Position numbers and translations under genes: made by a program
Source of the DNA: an uncultured Oscillospiraceae bacterium
GTDB taxonomy: Bacteria > Bacillota > Clostridia > Oscillospirales > Oscillospiraceae
Assembly: GCA_950097245.1 (NCBI GenBank)
Contig: CATNCS010000006.1
Span: forward strand, 1 to 64,000
Direction of reading: 5' to 3'
DNA length: 64,000 bases
In this document: piece after piece, positions 10,043 through 63,396 of the stretch
Numbering within the stretch: the stretch's first letter is position 1
Layout: each line of letters opens with the position of its first letter
The notes under the pieces: generated by a model
What the model was told of the DNA's origin: nothing
Database searches by the model: none
Seen by the model: only the letters and a program-made list of their open reading frames with translations

Positions 10043-10086
10043 CAGAAATTACCTCTTTTCTTTAATTGTAACCCGGATTTAAAAGC

Positions 10087-10138
10087 AGTATACAATACTC
10101 TCTTCGGTTTGTCAACCTTTTTTCTTTATGGTTTACTA
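10087..10138 (-). promoter_or_regulatory. bioY promoter with overlapping BirA-like operator
   Basis: Minus strand: TTGACA (10110-10115), 17 nt, TATACT (10087-10092). The -35 box lies in one half of an inverted repeat, TAGTAAACC-N12-GGTTGACAA (10109-10138), which resembles Firmicutes BirA operators. The N12 spacer is shorter than I would expect for BirA. Confidence 0.7.
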
Positions 10139-10238
10139 TTTATTTTTACCGCTTTTCAGAAAATCTTAATCTTTCCTTCAAGGCATTTTATACTTTCTGT
10201 TGTAATATGGTAACAGCAGCTGAAGGGAGGGACGTTCC

Positions 10239-10772
10239 ATGGCGGAGCGCACGATCTATATTTTACTGACCCGGTCCGGGACCTGGTTTTCCCGGCTGAT
10301 CCACCTCGCCACCCGGGACGATTTCACCCACGCCTCCATCGGCCTGGACGGCCCCGGCGGCCCCTTTTACAGCTTTGCCCGAAAGTACCGCTATCTGGCC
10401 CTCCCCGCCGGCCTGGTGGAGGAACAGGTCACGGTGTACCGCCGGGCGGTCCCCTGCTGCCTCTATGAGCTGAAGGTGAGCGAGGAGACCTACCTCCGTC
10501 TGCGGCAGAGGCTGCGCTCCATGTATGTCCAGCGGGAGGAGTACCACTACAGCGTGCTGGGTGTGCTGGCCTGCTGGTTCAACCTGTCCCTTCAGCGGCG
10601 GCACCACTACTTCTGCTCTCAGTTTGTGGCCGGACTGCTGGAGGACTGCGGCGCTGTAGAGCTGCCCAAGCCCCCCACCCTGCTGCGTCCCGCGGACTTC
10701 TGCGGCATGAAGGACCTCCGCCCTGTCCACCGGGGCGCGCTGGAGGGCATTTTGACCCAGGGGGCGGCCTGA
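10239..10772 (+). CDS. NlpC/P60-like (permuted papain-fold) protein
   Basis: A 177-residue soluble protein. It has FTHASIGLD near residue 28 (histidine) and HHYFCSQFVAGLLEDCG near 128 (cysteine). Histidine before cysteine is the order seen in the permuted YiiX/YaeF branch of NlpC/P60 hydrolases, which act on amide or ester bonds. There is no signal peptide, so it probably works inside the cell. The ATG follows GGGAGG. The gene is monocistronic and its substrate is unknown. Confidence 0.7.
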   Translation: MAERTIYILLTRSGTWFSRLIHLATRDDFTHASIGLDGPGGPFYSFARKYRYLALPAGLVEEQVTVYRRAVPCCLYELKVSEETYLRLRQRLRSMYVQREEYHYSVLGVLACWFNLSLQRRHHYFCSQFVAGLLEDCGAVELPKPPTLLRPADFCGMKDLRPVHRGALEGILTQGAA

Positions 10773-10803
10773 AAATTTTTTCTTCAAATTTCGCAATTAG
10801 GGG

Positions 10804-10832
10804 TTGACTTTTTCTTCTGACAACGTTATAAT
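10804..10832 (+). promoter_or_regulatory. Promoter of tRNA-Gly
   Basis: TTGACT, 17 nt, TATAAT, ending 13 nt before the mature tRNA 5' end. Confidence 0.88.
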
Positions 10833-10845
10833 GTCCACTGTTGTT

Positions 10846-10921
10846 GCGAGTGTAGCTCATCTGGTAGAGCGCCACCTTGCCAAGGTGGAGGTAGCGAGTT
10901 CGAGCCTCGTCACTCGCTCCA
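10846..10921 (+). tRNA. tRNA-Gly (GCC)
   Basis: Cloverleaf with acceptor GCGAGTG/CACTCGC, anticodon stem CCACC/GGTGG around TTGCCAA (anticodon GCC), T-loop TTCGAGC, discriminator T and encoded CCA. Confidence 0.96.
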
Positions 10922-10925
10922 TCGT

Positions 10926-10959
10926 CGGAGCAAAGTCCGCTTTGCTCCGGCATTTTTTT
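10926..10959 (+). terminator. tRNA-Gly terminator
   Basis: Perfect 10-bp stem CGGAGCAAAG/CTTTGCTCCG with loop TCCG, followed by GCATTTTTTT. Confidence 0.9.
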
Positions 10960-11039
10960 GCAAAAATGCCATCCGCTCCGCTTCCTTGCTCCTCCTCTCC
11001 AAACCGGACCCGCTGCGCCGGGCTCCGGTCAGGTCAAAC

Positions 11040-11070
11040 AAGGACCCCCGCCCATCGGGCGGGGGTCCTT
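11040..11070 (-). terminator. spoIVA terminator
   Basis: 14-bp perfect stem AAGGACCCCCGCCC/GGGCGGGGGTCCTT with a 3-nt loop, 3 nt past the spoIVA stop; the minus-strand tail is TTGTTTGA. Confidence 0.8.
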
Positions 11071-55963: not shown

Positions 55964-56050
55964 TGGTGCGCGAGGCGGGAGTCGAACCCGCACGCCCTTG
56001 CGAGCACTGGCACCTGAAGCCAGCGAGTCTACCAATTCCACCACTCGCGC
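55964..56050 (-). tRNA. tRNA-Leu (CAG)
   Basis: 87 nt with encoded CCA. Acceptor GCGCGAG/CTCGCGC, anticodon stem CTGGC/GCCAG around TTCAGGT (anticodon CAG), a long class II variable arm and T-loop TTCGACT. Confidence 0.95.
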
Positions 56051-56185: not shown

Positions 56186-56215
56186 TTGACAGGGCCAGTA
56201 TATTTTTGCTATACT
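56186..56215 (+). promoter_or_regulatory. Promoter of the lar operon
   Basis: TTGACA (56186-56191), 18 nt, TATACT (56210-56215). The start is expected near 56221, giving a leader of about 140 nt before larE. Confidence 0.8.
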
Positions 56216-56220
56216 AAACG

Positions 56221-56342
56221 GGCGGCAGGAAGCCGCAGACGGGCCAGAAGGCCTGTAAATTCCCCAAAACAGTTTAACACAGGTATCCGGCGCAGAAGCC
56301 GGATGTTTTGCCAGAAGGCATACCGGACCGGTATGCCTTTTT
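56221..56342 (+). ncRNA. Structured lar leader, candidate riboregulator
   Basis: A ~120-nt leader with hairpins GCGGC-AGGAA-GCCGC (56222-56236), ACGGGCC-AGAA-GGCCTGT (56239-56256), and ATCCGGC-GCAGAA-GCCGGAT (56285-56304), the last enclosed by CAAAACA/TGTTTTG (56265-56271 and 56304-56310). The final hairpin GCC-AGAA-GGC (56310-56319) competes with the intrinsic terminator for AAGGC. GCCAGAAGGC occurs twice. That is the layout of a riboswitch or protein-controlled attenuator. It does not clearly match a class I know (NiCo, cobalamin, T-box); the ligand is unknown. Confidence 0.5.
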
Positions 56343-56347
56343 ACTTT
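56315..56347 (+). terminator. Intrinsic terminator ahead of larE
   Basis: 10-bp perfect stem AAGGCATACC/GGTATGCCTT with loop GGACC, then TTTACTTTT, 24 nt before the larE start. Its 5' arm overlaps the alternative GCCAGAAGGC hairpin. Confidence 0.8.
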
Positions 56348-56363
56348 TAAGGAGGGACCGGCT

Positions 56364-57119
56364 GTGACACTGGACGAATTCTTTGCGCGCAATCCCCGGG
56401 CCGCCCTGGCCTTTTCCGGCGGGGTGGACTCCGCCTGCCTGCTGTGGGCGGGGCTTCAGGCCGGAGCCGAGGTGCGGCCTTACTTCGTCAAGACCCCCTT
56501 CCAGCCCCGGTTTGAGCTGGAGGACGCCCGCCGGCTGTGCAAACAGCTGGATGTGGATTTGATCGTGCTGGATTACGACATCCTCGACCACGAGACAGTG
56601 ACCTCCAACCCGCCCGACCGCTGCTACCACTGCAAGAGGCAGATGCTGTCCCGGCTGCGGGAGCGGGCGGCGGCGGACGGCTTCTCCCCGCTGCTGGACG
56701 GCACCAACGCCTCCGACGACGGCGGGGACCGCCCGGGCATGCGGGCGCTGCGGGAGCTGGAGGTCCGCTCCCCCCTGCGGGAGTGCGGCCTGACCAAGGA
56801 CCGCATCCGGGAACTGTCCAGGGCGGCGGGGCTGTTCACCTGGGACAAGCCCTCCTACGCCTGCCTGGCCACCCGGATTCCCGCCGGGAGGACTATCACC
56901 CGGGAGGACCTGGAACGGATAGAACAGGGGGAGGAGGCCCTGTCCGGCCTGGGATTTCGGGACTTCCGCCTGCGGCTGACGGCAGAGGGCGCCAAGCTCC
57001 AGGTGCTGGAGGACCAGCTGCCCCTGGCTCTGGAGCGGAGAAGAGAAATTCTGTTTGCCCTGGAGAGAGATTTTTCAGAGATCACCCTGGACCTGCGGCC
57101 CAGGGTCCCCATTGACTGA
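56364..57119 (+). CDS. larE: LarE: ATP-dependent sulfur-donating enzyme for nickel-pincer cofactor
   Basis: A 251-residue PP-loop ATPase. The loop is SGGVDS (18-23); DRCYHCKR carries Cys 87 and 90, and PSYACLATRIPAG carries Cys 167, matching the cysteine that LarE sacrifices in Lactiplantibacillus. In some LarE proteins three cysteines hold an iron-sulfur cluster instead; three conserved ones are present here. It adds sulfur to the pyridinium dicarboxylate made by LarB. Starts at GTG after AAGGAGG. First gene of the operon; LarB follows 10 bp on. Confidence 0.95.
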   Translation: MTLDEFFARNPRAALAFSGGVDSACLLWAGLQAGAEVRPYFVKTPFQPRFELEDARRLCKQLDVDLIVLDYDILDHETVTSNPPDRCYHCKRQMLSRLRERAAADGFSPLLDGTNASDDGGDRPGMRALRELEVRSPLRECGLTKDRIRELSRAAGLFTWDKPSYACLATRIPAGRTITREDLERIEQGEEALSGLGFRDFRLRLTAEGAKLQVLEDQLPLALERRREILFALERDFSEITLDLRPRVPID

Positions 57120-57129
57120 GGAGGTATTT

Positions 57130-57888
57130 ATGGACAATCGCCACGATATTTTACAGCTGCTCCGTCAGGTTGCGGACGGCTCCTCCACCCCGGAGGAGGC
57201 CCTGTCCCGGCTGAAGCGGGAGCCCTTTGCGGACCTGGGCTATGCCAAGGTGGACCTTCACCGCTCTGTGCGCCAGGGGGCGGCGGAGGTCATCTACGGG
57301 GCGGGCAAGACCCCGGAGCAGATCGCCGGCATCTCCGGAGCCATGGGGGCACGGGGCTGTCGGAACGTTCTCATCACCCGACTGTCCCCCGAGGCGGCGG
57401 ACGTTGTGGGAAAAACTGTCCCCCTGGACTACCACCCCATCCCCAGGCTGGCCATTGCTTTTCCGGGGGACCGGAGGTCTTTGGGACACATCGTGGTGGC
57501 CACCGGGGGCACCAGCGACATGCCGGTGGCCGAGGAGGCCGCCCTCACCGCCGAGGTACTGGGCAACCGGGTCACCCGGCTGTACGACGTGGGCGTGGCG
57601 GGGCTTCACCGGCTGCTGGCCAACCTGGAGCCCCTGATGAGCGCCCGGTGCGTGGTGGCGGTGGCCGGGATGGAGGGGGCGCTGGCCTCCGTCATCGGCG
57701 GGCTGGTGGACTGCCCGGTGGTGGCCGTGCCCACCAGCGTGGGCTACGGGGCCAGCTTCGGCGGGCTGTCCGCTCTGCTGGCTATGCTCAACTCCTGCGC
57801 CTCCGGGTGCAGCGTGGTCAACATCGACAACGGCTTTGGCGCCGGCTATCTGGCCAGCATGATTAATCAGATGGAGGGAATTGAATGA
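57130..57888 (+). CDS. larB: LarB: nicotinate adenine dinucleotide carboxylase/hydrolase
   Basis: A 252-residue enzyme of the PurE-like (AIR carboxylase) fold that carboxylates nicotinic acid adenine dinucleotide to begin nickel-pincer cofactor synthesis. It has FADLGYAKVDLHRSVRQGAAEVIYG, VVATGGTSDMPVAEEAA, VPTSVGYGASFGG and LNSCASGCSVVNIDNGFGAGY; the cysteine of LNSCASG (~residue 223) is the likely substrate-capturing residue. GAGGAGG precedes the ATG. Overlaps larC by four bases. Confidence 0.95.
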   Translation: MDNRHDILQLLRQVADGSSTPEEALSRLKREPFADLGYAKVDLHRSVRQGAAEVIYGAGKTPEQIAGISGAMGARGCRNVLITRLSPEAADVVGKTVPLDYHPIPRLAIAFPGDRRSLGHIVVATGGTSDMPVAEEAALTAEVLGNRVTRLYDVGVAGLHRLLANLEPLMSARCVVAVAGMEGALASVIGGLVDCPVVAVPTSVGYGASFGGLSALLAMLNSCASGCSVVNIDNGFGAGYLASMINQMEGIE

Positions 57889-59117
57889 AAACCTTATATT
57901 TAGAGTGCAATATGGGGGCCGCCGGCGACATGCTCATGGCCGCCCTGTACGAGTTGCTCAGCGAGGAGCAGAAAAAAACCTTTTTGGCCGCCATGAACGG
58001 TCTGGGCCTGCCCGGCGTGGAGGTGGCCCCTGTGGCCGCGAAAACCGGCGGCATCGCGGGCACCCACATGCGGGTGACGGTCCGAGGCCAGGAGGAGCAG
58101 GAGCACGGCCACCACCAGGACCATCACCATGAGCTCCATCATGAACACGAGCACCACCACCATCACCACGCCACGCCGGGACACATCGGGGCGATCATCG
58201 ACGGCCTGTCCCTGCCCCAGGAGGTAAAGGACCGGGCCCGGCAGGTCTACGCCGCCATCGCCCAGGCAGAGGCCCAGGCCCACGGCTGCGCAGTGGGGGA
58301 CGTCCACTACCACGAAGTGGGGGCGCTGGACGCGGTGGCCGACGTGGTGGGGGTGTGCTATGCCATGCACCTGCTGGACCCCGACCTGGTGACCGCCTCC
58401 CCCGTCCACGTGGGCAGCGGGACGGTACAATGCGCTCACGGAATGATGCCCGTCCCCGCTCCCGCCACCGCAGCCCTGCTGAAAGGAATCCCCATCTACG
58501 GCGGGGAGGTACAAGGGGAGCTGTGCACCCCCACCGGGGCCGCTCTGCTGAAAACCTTCGTCCAGAGCTTCGGCTCCATGGGGGAGATGGACGTGGAAAA
58601 GATTGGCTACGGCATTGGCACCAAGGAGTTTGAGCGGGCCAACTGCGTTCGGGCCTTCTGGGGGGAGGAGGAGCCCCGGGAGTGGGGAGACATTGTGGAA
58701 CTGGTGTGCAACATCGACGACATGACCCCCGAGGCCCTGGCCTTCGCCTGCCAGCGGCTGCTGGAGGCGGGGGCGCTGGACGTGTACACCACCCCCGGCA
58801 CCATGAAGAAGGGCCGGCCTGGCTGGGTGCTGACAGTTCTTTGTGACCCCTATTTGGAGAACGACATCATCCGACAGATTTTCACCCACACCTCTACCAA
58901 CGGCCTGCGCTCCCACCTGTCGATGAAATATTTCCTCAAGCCCAGGCGGGAACAGGTCCAGACCCAGTGGGGCCCTGTGGGGGTGAAGCTGGCCCAGGGC
59001 TTCGGCGTCACCCACGTCAAGCCGGAGTTCGAGGACGCGGCCGCCCTGGCCCGGACGCGCAACCTGTCTTACCGGGCGGTGTTCGAGGACGCGATCCGGA
59101 ATCTTAAGGAGGACTGA
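57885..59117 (+). CDS. larC: LarC: nickel insertase, single-frame full-length form
   Basis: A 410-residue protein that inserts nickel into the pincer cofactor using CTP. It opens TLYLECNMGAAGDMLMAALYEL, has a histidine-rich stretch (residues ~75-95, HHHHHH run) fit for metal storage, then DVHYHEVGALDAVADVVG and CTPTGAALLKTF; the C-terminal half has IDDMTPEALAFACQRLLEAGALDV. In Lactiplantibacillus the gene is split (larC1/larC2) and needs frameshifting; here it is one frame. Overlaps larB by four bases; the next gene starts right at its stop. Confidence 0.95.
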   Translation: MKTLYLECNMGAAGDMLMAALYELLSEEQKKTFLAAMNGLGLPGVEVAPVAAKTGGIAGTHMRVTVRGQEEQEHGHHQDHHHELHHEHEHHHHHHATPGHIGAIIDGLSLPQEVKDRARQVYAAIAQAEAQAHGCAVGDVHYHEVGALDAVADVVGVCYAMHLLDPDLVTASPVHVGSGTVQCAHGMMPVPAPATAALLKGIPIYGGEVQGELCTPTGAALLKTFVQSFGSMGEMDVEKIGYGIGTKEFERANCVRAFWGEEEPREWGDIVELVCNIDDMTPEALAFACQRLLEAGALDVYTTPGTMKKGRPGWVLTVLCDPYLENDIIRQIFTHTSTNGLRSHLSMKYFLKPRREQVQTQWGPVGVKLAQGFGVTHVKPEFEDAAALARTRNLSYRAVFEDAIRNLKED

Positions 59118-60719
59118 ATGAAACGATATGCTTGGCTCGTCTCCCTGTTGGCGCTCTCCCTCCTGGCCGGATGCGGCGGCCAGACGCGGAACCCTTCACC
59201 GGACAAAGCCGCTGTCACGGTCGTCATGCCGCCCACCTCCGAGCCGGAGGCCGGCTTCGATCCCGCCTTCGGCTGGGGAGCGGGGGAGCACGTCCACGAG
59301 CCGCTGCTCCAGTCCACCCTGACGGTGACCAACCCCGACCTGACCATCGGCTACGACCTGGCAACCGATATGAGGGTCAGTGAGGACAGTCTGGCCTGGA
59401 CTGTGACCATTCGGGAGGGCGTGAAGTTCACTGACGGCACCGATCTGACCGCCGCTGACGTGGCTTTCACCTATAACGCCGCCCGGGATGCCAGCTCCGT
59501 CAACGACTTTACTATGCTGGATCGGGCGGAGGCCGTAGACGACACCACGGTGGTCTTTCATATGACCCGGCCCTTCTCCATCTGGCCCTACACCATGGCC
59601 ACCCTGGGCATCGTTCCGGAGGACTCCTACGACCCGGCCGCCTACGGGAGCAGTCCCGTCGGCTCGGGCCGGTACAGGCTGAGGCAGTGGGACCGGGGCC
59701 AGCAGGCCATTCTGGAGGCCAATCCGGACTACTACGGCGAAAAGCCCCAAATGGAGCGGGTGAACATCCTGTTCATGGAGGAGGACGCCGCCTTTCTGGC
59801 CGTTCAGGCGGGCCAGGCCGACCTGGCCTACACCTCCGCCCCCTACGCGGACCAGACGGTGAACGGCTTTTCCCTGCTGTCCGTGAAAACAGTGGACAAC
59901 CGGGGGATCAATCTGCCCGTTACGGGGAACGATTTTCTCTCTGATGCGGAGGTCCGCCGGGCCATCGACGCGGGCATTGACCGGGAGGAAATGGTCGATC
60001 ATGTTTTGAACGGCTACGGAAGTCCCGCTTACAGCGTGTGTGACGGCTTGCCCTGGTTTACCTGGGAGGCCAGACTGCCTTACGACCCCGTCGAGGCAAG
60101 CGACTGGCTGGATTCCGCCGGCTGGCACCTGGAGAAGGAGTACCAGGAGAAGATACCGGCGGGACAGCTCTACCCCCTTGATTGCGGCTGGCGGTATAAG
60201 GACGGCGTCCGGGCGGAGATGGAGCTGCTATACCCCGTAGGGGATACCGTTCGTCAGGCACTGGCTATGGACGCGGCCAATCAGTTGGGACGGCTTGGCA
60301 TTTACTGTACCGTCCGGGGCGTTGGCTGGGACACCGCCTATGACGAAGCACTTACCACGCCCCTGGTCTGGGGCTGGGGGGCCCACACCCCCATGGAGCT
60401 TTACAACATCTATCACACAGACCGCGAAACCGGCTCTGCCCGCTACTCCCCCTACGCCAATCCCACCGTAGATGCGTATATGGACGAGGCGCTGGCCTGC
60501 ACTGACCTGGAGGAAGCCTACCGGCTGTGGCAGACGGCACAGTATGACGGCTTCACCGGCGTTACCCGGTCCGGCGACTGCCCCTGGGTGTGGCTGGTAA
60601 ACGTGGATCACCTGTACTGGGTGCGGGACGGCCTTCAGGTGGCCCAGCAGAAGATCCACCCCCACGGCCACGGGTGGTCTGTCGTCAACAACGTGGACCA
60701 ATGGGAGTGGAATTCGTAG
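59118..60719 (+). CDS. Nickel/peptide-type ABC transporter substrate-binding lipoprotein
   Basis: A 533-residue lipoprotein with lipobox LSLLAGCGG (Cys 19). It is an SBP_bac_5 protein (NikA/DppA/OppA class): YDLATDMRVSEDSLAWTVTIREGVKFTDGTDLTAADVAFTY and PVGSGRYRLRQW are typical. The C-terminal end has HPHGHGW, possible metal ligands. It starts at the ATG immediately after the larC stop, inside the lar operon, so nickel or a nickel chelate is the likely cargo (inference). AAGGAGG lies in the end of larC. Its stop TAG is part of a family A repeat. Confidence 0.88.
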   Translation: MKRYAWLVSLLALSLLAGCGGQTRNPSPDKAAVTVVMPPTSEPEAGFDPAFGWGAGEHVHEPLLQSTLTVTNPDLTIGYDLATDMRVSEDSLAWTVTIREGVKFTDGTDLTAADVAFTYNAARDASSVNDFTMLDRAEAVDDTTVVFHMTRPFSIWPYTMATLGIVPEDSYDPAAYGSSPVGSGRYRLRQWDRGQQAILEANPDYYGEKPQMERVNILFMEEDAAFLAVQAGQADLAYTSAPYADQTVNGFSLLSVKTVDNRGINLPVTGNDFLSDAEVRRAIDAGIDREEMVDHVLNGYGSPAYSVCDGLPWFTWEARLPYDPVEASDWLDSAGWHLEKEYQEKIPAGQLYPLDCGWRYKDGVRAEMELLYPVGDTVRQALAMDAANQLGRLGIYCTVRGVGWDTAYDEALTTPLVWGWGAHTPMELYNIYHTDRETGSARYSPYANPTVDAYMDEALACTDLEEAYRLWQTAQYDGFTGVTRSGDCPWVWLVNVDHLYWVRDGLQVAQQKIHPHGHGWSVVNNVDQWEWNS

Positions 60720-60786: not shown

Positions 60787-60808
60787 AGCGGGTCAAGGAG
60801 GTCATTCC

Positions 60809-61795
60809 ATGCTTCACCGTCTGCAATTCACCGCAAAAAAATTGGTACGCATGGCGCTCCTCCTGCTGGGGGTGAGCCTGACGGCCTTCCTGCTTATGGA
60901 CGCCTCCCCCCTGGACCCCCTCCAGACCAATATCGGCCAGGCGGCCTTAGGGACCATGAGCCCGGAGCAGATTGCCCGCCTGGAGGAGTACTGGGGGATA
61001 AACACCCCGGCGGCGGAGCGGTATGTGGGCTGGCTGGGGTCCGCCCTGCGGGGGGATTTTGGGGTCTCGCTGCTCTACAGCCGGCCGGTGCTCGCCGTGG
61101 TTGGCCAGCGCCTGGGGAACTCTCTCTGGCTGCTGCTCTTCGCCTGGGTGCTGTCCGGGGGGCTGGGACTGGCCCTGGGCCTGGCCGCCGGGGCCAACCG
61201 GGGCCGGTGGCCGGACAGACTGATCCGGGGCTACTGCCTGGTCATCTCCAGCACCCCCACCTTCTGGCTGGCCTTGCTGCTGTTGATGGTCTTCTCCGTC
61301 TGGCTGGGCTGGCTGCCCATTGGACTGTCCGTCCCCATTGGGGCGGACGCCGCCAGCGTCACCCTGACCGCCCGGCTGTACCACGCCCTGCTGCCCGGCT
61401 TGACCCTGTCCGTCACCGGGGTGGCGGGTATCGCCCTCCACACCCGGGAAAAGGTGGTGGATGTGCTGGACAGCGACTATGTCCTCTTCGCCCGGGCCCG
61501 GGGAGAGGGGCACATCCTCCGCCGCCACGTGCTGCGCAACGTGGCCCTGCCCGCCCTCACCCTGCAGTTCGCCTCCATCGGGGAGATCATCGGCGGCTCG
61601 GTGCTGGTGGAGCAGGTCTTCTCCTACCCCGGACTGGGACAGGCGGCTGTGGCCGCCGGGCTGGGGGGCGATTTGCCCCTGCTGCTGGGTATCACGGTGG
61701 TCACCGCCGCCCTGGTCTTCGGGGGCAGTCTGGCCGCCGACCTGCTGTACGGGGTGATTGACCCCCGCATCCGAAGGGGGGCGGCCAAGGCGTGA
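60809..61795 (+). CDS. Nickel/peptide-type ABC transporter permease (NikB/DppB-like)
   Basis: A 328-residue permease with about six membrane helices. N-terminal LVRMALLLLGVSLTAFLLM and the plan SPLDPLQTNIGQAALGTMSPEQIARLEEYWGIN are typical of the DppB/NikB class. The ATPase-contact loop is RARGEGHILRRHVLRNVALPALTL (~residues 230-253). TCAAGGAGGTCATTCC precedes the ATG at 60809. Overlaps the next gene by four bases. Confidence 0.93.
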   Translation: MLHRLQFTAKKLVRMALLLLGVSLTAFLLMDASPLDPLQTNIGQAALGTMSPEQIARLEEYWGINTPAAERYVGWLGSALRGDFGVSLLYSRPVLAVVGQRLGNSLWLLLFAWVLSGGLGLALGLAAGANRGRWPDRLIRGYCLVISSTPTFWLALLLLMVFSVWLGWLPIGLSVPIGADAASVTLTARLYHALLPGLTLSVTGVAGIALHTREKVVDVLDSDYVLFARARGEGHILRRHVLRNVALPALTLQFASIGEIIGGSVLVEQVFSYPGLGQAAVAAGLGGDLPLLLGITVVTAALVFGGSLAADLLYGVIDPRIRRGAAKA

Positions 61796-62613
61796 CAGGC
61801 AACCGACGCAGGAGTACACTTTTTCTGCTGATTCTGGCGGGGGGACTGCTGCTTGCTCTGGCCCTGGCCGGAGGACTGCTGGATGACAGGGCCCTGACCA
61901 CCGACTTCTCCCGAAAAAATCTGCCCCCCTGCCCGGCCTATCTCTTCGGCACCGACTGGATGGGCAGGGACATGCTGGCCCGCACTCTGACCGGACTGTC
62001 TCTGTCCCTCCGGGTGGGGGCCCTCACCGCCGCCGCCAGCGCGGCCATCGCCCTGGTGCTGGGGACGGCCTCCGCCGCCTTCGGGGGTTGGGTGGACGCC
62101 CTCGTCTCCTGGCTCATCCACCTGGTGATGGGCGTCCCCCACATCCTGCTCATCATCCTGGTCTCCCTGGCCTGCGGCCGGGGGTTCTGGGGGGTGACGG
62201 CGGGGGTGACCCTCACCCACTGGCCCGCCCTGGCCCGGCTGGTCCGGGGGGAGGTGCTCCAGCTGAAGGGGGCCCCCTGGCTCCGGATGTCCCGGCGGCT
62301 GGGGGCGCCCCGGGGGAAGATCCTCCGAAATCACATCCTGCCCCACCTGCTGCCCCAGTTTTTGACCGGGCTCATCCTCCAGTTTCCCCATGCCATTCTC
62401 CATGAGGCCGGCGTCACCTTTCTGGGCTTCGGACTGCCCCCGGAGCAGCCCGCTATTGGCGTCATTCTGGAGGAGAGCATGTCCTACCTCACCACCGGCC
62501 GGTGGTGGCTGGCCCTGTTCCCCGGGCTGGCCCTGGTGCTGGTGGTGGTGCTCTTTGCCCTGGCCGGGGAGCGGCTGCGCCTGCTCCTCTCCCCTGCCAG
62601 CGCCCAGGAATAG
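61792..62613 (+). CDS. Nickel/peptide-type ABC transporter permease (NikC/DppC-like)
   Basis: A 273-residue permease, start GTG overlapping the previous stop (GTGA). It has the DppC/NikC opening with LFGTDWMGRDMLARTLTGLSLSLRVG (residues ~50-75) and the contact loop RRLGAPRGKILRNHILPHLLPQF. It forms the channel with the NikB-like subunit. Confidence 0.93.
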   Translation: MTGNRRRSTLFLLILAGGLLLALALAGGLLDDRALTTDFSRKNLPPCPAYLFGTDWMGRDMLARTLTGLSLSLRVGALTAAASAAIALVLGTASAAFGGWVDALVSWLIHLVMGVPHILLIILVSLACGRGFWGVTAGVTLTHWPALARLVRGEVLQLKGAPWLRMSRRLGAPRGKILRNHILPHLLPQFLTGLILQFPHAILHEAGVTFLGFGLPPEQPAIGVILEESMSYLTTGRWWLALFPGLALVLVVVLFALAGERLRLLLSPASAQE

Positions 62614-62622
62614 GAGGCGGCT

Positions 62623-63396
62623 GTGGAACCAATTTTGACTGTAGAACACCTGTCTGTCTCCTTCACCCGCTACAGCCGGGGCTTCGCCCGGACGGAGCTG
62701 TCCGCCGTCCGGGACCTGTCTCTGACCGTGGAGCCGGGGAGGGTGACGGCCCTGGTGGGGGAGAGCGGCTCGGGCAAGAGCCTGCTGGCCCACGCCATTC
62801 TTCAGCTTCTCCCCCGGAACGCCCAGGTGGGAGGAACCATCCTCTATGACGGCGCTCCCCTCTCCCGGGAGCGGGCGGAGGCCCTCCGGGGCCGGGAGAT
62901 CGCCCTCATTCCCCAGGGAATCACCTGGCTGGACCCCATGATGAAGGTGGGCCCCCAGGTGCGCCGGGGGCGCGGCGATTCGGAGACAAGAGCCCGGTGC
63001 CGGGCGGCCCTGGACCGCTTCGGCCTGGGGCCCCAGGTGGAGGAGCTCTACCCCTTTGAGCTGTCCGGGGGGATGGCCCGGCGGGTGCTCATCGCCTGCG
63101 CCGTAATGGACAGCCCCCGGCTCATCGTGGCCGACGAGCCCACCCCCGGACTGGATATCCGGGCCGCCGGGCGGGTACTGGGCCACTTCCGGGAGCTGGC
63201 GGAGGAGGGGGCCGGGGTGCTGTTCATCACCCACGACCTGGAGCTGGCCCTCACCGTGGCCCACAAGCTGGTGGTCCTCTGTGAGGGGCGGACAGTGGAG
63301 GAGCTCTCCCCCGCCCGTTTCCGGTCCGGCCAGGGATTGAACCACCCCTACACCCGGGCCCTGTGGCACGCCATGCCGGAGAACAATTTTTTGTAG
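62623..63396 (+). CDS. Nickel/peptide-type ABC transporter ATPase (NikD/DppD-like)
   Basis: A 257-residue ABC ATPase starting at GTG after AGGAGGC. Walker A GESGSGKS, signature LSGGMARR, Walker B LIVADEPTPGLD, switch ITHDLELA, and the C-terminal NHPYTRALWHAMP typical of the peptide/nickel class. Its stop TAG is the first TAG of a family A repeat that separates it from the second ATPase gene. Confidence 0.93.
   Translation: MEPILTVEHLSVSFTRYSRGFARTELSAVRDLSLTVEPGRVTALVGESGSGKSLLAHAILQLLPRNAQVGGTILYDGAPLSRERAEALRGREIALIPQGITWLDPMMKVGPQVRRGRGDSETRARCRAALDRFGLGPQVEELYPFELSGGMARRVLIACAVMDSPRLIVADEPTPGLDIRAAGRVLGHFRELAEEGAGVLFITHDLELALTVAHKLVVLCEGRTVEELSPARFRSGQGLNHPYTRALWHAMPENNFL

Follow-up and report, generated by a model that had tools for sequence, protein, structure and literature searches.

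A conserved hairpin-array leader ahead of nickel-cofactor and transporter genes in Clostridia, with DUF3842 as a candidate regulator

The nickel-cofactor operon larE-larB-larC in the window, a stretch of 64,000 nucleotides from an uncultured Oscillospiraceae bacterium, is preceded by a short leader in which the last of four small hairpins competes with an intrinsic terminator. Three covariance models recover relatives from 17 or more clostridial families, and comparison with these leaves very little doubt that this is a conserved cis-acting attenuator in which the hairpin, H4, and the terminator are mutually exclusive. That mode of action is already known in kind, and the RNA family appears new as far as the searched libraries show. 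The element is not lar-specific, having several kinds of target gene, and in many gut Clostridia it identifies the members of a nickel/lar regulon. The features of the window are as follows.

56186-56215, + strand: sigma-70 type promoter, TTGACA, 18 nt and an extended -10 TATACT, near-consensus with 11 of 12 matches
56222-56236, + strand: hairpin H1, GCGGC-[AGGAA]-GCCGC, two-sided changes at 5 of 5 pairs across 45 relatives
56239-56256, + strand: hairpin H2, ACGGGCC-[AGAA]-GGCCTGT, two-sided changes at 6 of 6 pairs
56285-56304, + strand: hairpin H3, ATCCGGC-[GCAGAA]-GCCGGAT, stem covarying, loop less conserved than those of H2 and H4
56309-56320, + strand: hairpin H4, the putative antiterminator, TGCC-[AGAA]-GGCA, about -4.2 kcal/mol, mutually exclusive with the terminator
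56313-56342, + strand: intrinsic terminator, AGAAGGCATACCGG/CCGGTATGCCTTTTT, about -18.2 kcal/mol, 12 of 13 pairs covarying
56349-56356, + strand: larE ribosome binding site, AAGGAGGG, as read from the sequence
56364-57119, + strand: larE, sacrificial sulfur transferase (NCBIfam TIGR00268, 234 bits, above cut-off)
57130-57888, + strand: larB (NCBIfam NF033503, 277 bits, above cut-off)
57885-59117, + strand: larC, nickel insertion, LarC1 and LarC2 in one frame (NCBIfam TIGR00299 and NF052512; Pfam PF01969)
59118-60719, + strand: substrate-binding protein SBP_bac_5, top NCBIfam match nickel_nikA, under the equivalog cut-off
60806-63396, + strand: ABC transporter with permeases at 60806-61795 and 61792-62613 and ATPase at 62623-63396 (Pfam)

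After the promoter, whose TTGAC and TATACT are found at the equivalent position in relatives, the leader runs for about 120 nt, and each of its four hairpins has a GAA-containing loop with C-G closing, or nearly so. Its folding energy is -55.8 kcal/mol versus -35.8 kcal/mol in dinucleotide shuffles (z -5.5), better than 200 of 200. H4 and the 5′ arm of the terminator have AGAAGGC in common, and the leader contains, at 56243 and 56310, the only two exact copies of the decamer GCCAGAAGGC in the window. The consensus promoter, the three stable hairpins (now located as H1, H2 and H3), the final hairpin overlapping the terminator 5′ arm and the repeated decamer had all been pointed out in the initial annotation and stand; the overlap proves to be conserved. 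An enclosing CAAAACA/TGTTTTG helix, also proposed there, was rejected as not conserved, being private to the window sequence: across 13 relatives 40% of cells pair, and 31-40% do so when the alignment is slid by 1-2 columns. New here are the sharing of one loop type (NGAA/ANGAA) among the hairpins and the recurrence of the pattern before other genes. Just upstream and divergent from the lar promoter lies a tRNA gene (55967-56050, - strand) that is retained in several relatives.

The nickel cofactor genes that the initial annotation placed after the leader are identified by their NCBIfam equivalogs as larE, larB and larC, followed by an ABC transporter with a binding protein closest to NikA. 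The host genome is that of a member of the Clostridia (2.37 Mb), and its LarE is nearest to those of Lawsonibacter and related Oscillospiraceae MAGs.

BLAST searches recovered the leader from 13 further genomes of the genus at 69-80% identity, always immediately before larE, and among 22 larE genes in a genus sample 14 have this leader, 7 have a diverged version of the plan and 1 is operon-internal. A first covariance model (R1) added, at E 1e-8 to 6e-6, nine leaders from six other genera; these too precede larE, with differing stems and unchanged loops. Two-sided changes occur at 21 of 30 pairs in the alignment of 23 sequences; with 45 sequences there are compensatory double changes at 29 of 30, 94% of cells are paired versus 39-52% when slid, and 271 double-change cells are observed versus 85 in shuffles. 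H2, whose loop is AGAA in all 23 first-round sequences, and H4 are the most constant hairpins and H1 and H3 less so, H3 being sometimes missing or degenerate and the spacer between H2 and H3 varying in sequence and length. H4 hardly varies, since its sequence has two partners to match; in the single pair free to vary, C-G becomes U-A and the terminator partner changes alongside, and diverged leaders retain H4 despite their further changes. The overlap of H4 with the terminator is present in nearly all elements, across many families. Against 4227 Rfam models, riboswitches included, the window leader fell below the gathering score for every family, and none of 15 relatives reached the gathering cut-off. 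The sole match at E<=10, to RgsA (19.6 bits versus a cut-off of 88.4), was discarded as a chance, terminator-driven one. The idea of a new-looking structured cis-regulatory RNA, for which a covariance model of homologous leaders and an Rfam search had been put forward as checks, comes through both.

The loops follow a simple code. Under C-G closure they end in GAA (AGAA, UGAA, CGAA, AGGAA, ACGAA, AUGAA, AAGAA and rarely AUUGAA), which holds for 158 of 353 C..G hairpins in 59 elements versus 99 of 5596 in control DNA; of these 158, 100 are tetraloops, 56 pentaloops and 2 hexaloops. When a descriptor that asks for a GAA-type hairpin whose 3′ arm is also the terminator 5′ arm was scanned over 1.63 Mb, its matches were almost exclusively larE leaders, with the exclusion between H4 and the terminator retained.

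It is the genes under the element, namely larE, larC, nikA-type and FecCD-type ABC transporters, an ECF S component and a membrane-protein pair of lar operons, that support the nickel/lar link suggested at the outset. Matches of the covariance models above about E 1e-5 are mostly terminator-only or coding false positives, and weak ones were counted only where the hairpins and a target gene were visible. The second model (R2) found the element before larE in other families (L154-L156), before a FecCD-type (L153) and a NikA-type (L159) ABC operon, and before an ECF S component (PF12822) at L142, L158 and L160, with a weaker score at L029. The third (R3), run on 391 Clostridia genomes, added 18 elements upheld by eye, whose targets are larE, larC, a NikA-like binding protein, FecCD, six ECF S components, a methyltransferase and a small-membrane-protein pair; within the stretch read the pair is followed by larE or larC in 4 of 7 cases, and one genome (G1061) has two elements. 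Among 80 named larE loci at least 42 have the element, carriers including Merdimonas faecis and Claveliimonas monacensis among the Lachnospiraceae and Flintibacter muris among the Oscillospiraceae, and in many of the named loci lacking it larE is operon-internal.

The membrane pair (MACFLVP.. and MTLLTTVFAAII..) heads lar operons under the element at L335 (684-1417, - strand), L341 (1024-1449, - strand), L343 and L350; it has no Pfam and no convincing NCBIfam match, and NCBIfam gave it no name. The PF12822 proteins under the element (L142, L158, L160, L184, L344, L355, L356 and L358) share a PMH[IL]PV-like motif and often have cysteines, and the family is a candidate for the transport of nickel or of some cofactor precursor. 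The element is a potential marker for assigning substrates to orphan ECF and ABC transporters. Two ECF S leaders reduced to two hairpins, one AGAA hairpin and AUACC-GUGAA-GGUAU, escape the models (L192, about 10066-11050, - strand; L193, 3700-4200, + strand), and given such forms the element is probably commoner than counted.

What binds the leader is probably a protein. The conserved unpaired bases are only loops of 4-6 nt repeated two to four times, as in ANTAR leaders, and one protein family, DUF3842 (PF12953), keeps adjoining the element; both make a protein partner likelier than RNA sensing. Of 70 element loci, 19 have DUF3842 in the flanking sequence that was retrieved, against about 0.1 expected; it is always upstream, often 12-60 nt from the element, and these loci span about nine families and several kinds of target. 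Unbiased clustering of the upstream frames returned it as the sole recurrent family (16 of 47 loci; next best 3). All 8 near-complete element genomes tested have it, as do all 20 named ones and all 11 element genomes of an order-wide sample whose base rate is 134 of 394 (34%), counts that overstate the significance as related genomes are not independent and phylogeny is not fully controlled. Four element genomes without it are incomplete MAGs (65-85% complete), so that absence there is uninformative. Co-occurrence within the window's genus was dropped as evidence: nearly every genome there has DUF3842, and so only the order-wide base rate and the adjacency carry weight. In the window genome the gene is elsewhere (G000:C26), in many element genomes it is not adjacent, and it also occurs in genomes with no detected element, including 6 of 8 larE genomes of that kind, and so DUF3842 may simply belong to nickel/lar metabolism and not read RNA.

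The protein has about 135 residues and a predicted Rossmann-type fold (pLDDT 95.8). Among solved structures it comes closest to NAD-binding dehydrogenase domains (Z about 10), a fold too common to reveal a function; the model contains no recognised RNA-binding domain, only the generic NAD-type Rossmann fold. A resemblance to ribosomal protein uL1 at the profile level (E 0.11) was too weak to keep, the NCBIfam search gave no name for the family, and in the literature searched no paper names it. Synteny and co-occurrence make DUF3842 the best candidate regulator of the element and give an even chance that it is the partner.

The reading that we favour, with a confidence just above evens, is a transcription-attenuation leader with protein-dependent antitermination, DUF3842 being the likeliest regulator and nickel or nickel-pincer-nucleotide (NPN) status the likeliest signal. 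By default the polymerase would make H1 to H4, the emerging 3′ arm of the terminator would capture the 3′ half of H4, and transcription would halt ahead of larE; judged from the predicted energies, -4.2 kcal/mol for H4 versus -18.2 for the terminator, the terminator should win unaided. An active regulator, most likely the small Rossmann-fold protein DUF3842, would bind the C-[(A)NGAA]-G loops and stabilise the weak H4, leaving a short hairpin (-4.4 kcal/mol) unable to terminate, and the nickel-cofactor and transporter genes would be made. H1 and H2, further upstream, may offer the protein additional sites that help to load it or to time its action. That the signal is nickel or NPN status, as the target genes suggest, seems rather likely.

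This proposal has its nearest models, and one rival, in systems already described. The dual-hairpin targets of ANTAR antiterminators such as EutV, NasR and AmiR (PMC3369931, PMC7496416, PMC8934654) likewise have adjacent small hairpins with C-G closing, a loop-start A, a conserved G, a last hairpin exclusive with the terminator and a multi-operon regulon, and the loops of the element are ANTAR-like in having A first and G third from the loop 3′ end (PMC3369931, PMC7496416). ANTAR targets have a hexaloop closed by C-G in which A1 and G4 are required (PMC3369931, PMC7496416), whereas the element has mostly NGAA tetraloops or ANGAA pentaloops in up to four hairpins; the window's loops (AGGAA, AGAA, GCAGAA and AGAA) do not give an A1/G4 hexaloop in both hairpins, and its last hairpin does overlap an intrinsic terminator. 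That ANTAR-domain proteins read these altered loop lengths is very improbable. A few H4 loops are AUUGAA, the canonical A1/G4 hexaloop (L029, L359), the window genome encodes an ANTAR protein and most genomes have one such gene; yet ANTAR was set aside as the regulator on finding no ANTAR protein in three element genomes of 98% completeness (G119, G584 and G626), among them one whose H4 is a hexaloop. The ANTAR gene also occurs without lar and, where examined, sits with glutamine/glutamate synthase genes, and the element serves nickel/lar genes whereas ANTAR targets serve nitrogen genes. By eye, glnA leaders adjoining an ANTAR gene look different from the element. At L124-L132 there is mostly a single ANTAR protein per genome, with a degenerate receiver-like domain, and no RNA targets of it were found.

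Among the other readings, the conserved loops would also suit antitermination by some other RNA-binding protein, in which case DUF3842 would merely work alongside the same genes, perhaps as an enzyme related to the cofactor, and be encoded beside them. The occurrence of DUF3842 without the element and its want of a known RNA-binding domain speak for this, but no second gene family recurs beside the element and the position of DUF3842, upstream in every case, suits a regulator better than an operon member, and we regard this reading as fairly unlikely. A riboswitch acting as RNA alone, with nickel, cobalt or an intermediate of the nickel cofactor as its ligand, would fit the nickel-related genes, the typical terminator architecture and the Rfam blank, which is compatible with a new class, but the hairpins are all simple, with loops of 4-6 nt, and there is neither a junction nor a conserved internal loop; the H2-H3 spacer varies, H3 is absent or degenerate in some leaders, and a varying loop length would be unusual for a binding pocket, all of which make it improbable. 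That the intrinsic terminator directly before larE is constitutive and the hairpins incidental is scarcely credible, given the strong covariation of H1-H3 and the retention of the H4/terminator overlap over many families.

PyrR, which is PRTase-like and binds a larger hairpin, promotes termination in pyr operons. There a gene for a nucleotide-binding-type protein lies beside the attenuator, a role for which DUF3842, adjacent at 19 of 70 loci, would be a candidate, and there too a purine-rich conserved loop goes with antiterminator versus terminator; PyrR and DUF3842 have no known relationship, and RNA binding by DUF3842 is only a candidate role. The NiCo (czcD) riboswitch is a four-way junction aptamer for efflux genes, and so also an RNA leader tied to nickel/cobalt genes; unlike it the element is a simple row of hairpins and matched no Rfam family. 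In Lactiplantibacillus lar genes are controlled by LarR, a DNA-binding protein that acts on promoter DNA and not by RNA attenuation. To our knowledge control of the nickel-pincer cofactor is known only through this DNA-binding protein in lactobacilli, and our literature searches did not find RNA control of lar genes.

The element would bring a new loop code to RNA antitermination and make ANTAR-like hairpin logic possible without ANTAR proteins, and should DUF3842 prove to be its reader, the protein would represent a new class. A bolder version, to which we give somewhat less than even chances, is that DUF3842 founds a class of stand-alone Rossmann-fold antiterminators that sense nickel or a nicotinate-derived nucleotide (NPN, NaAD or NAD), grip C-[(A)NGAA]-G hairpin arrays and switch on genes for nickel-cofactor synthesis and transport across Clostridia. 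In any case a widespread protein family for which no literature was found gains a testable function.

Two variants of the array deserve mention. One element-like array with a terminator (L157 in G630, 1501-1604, - strand) has no clear same-strand target nearby and is possibly a stand-alone RNA or a decoy. In Flintibacter muris (L010, 1113-1286) an internal tandem duplication of the H2-spacer-H3 region gives the leader one extra hairpin.
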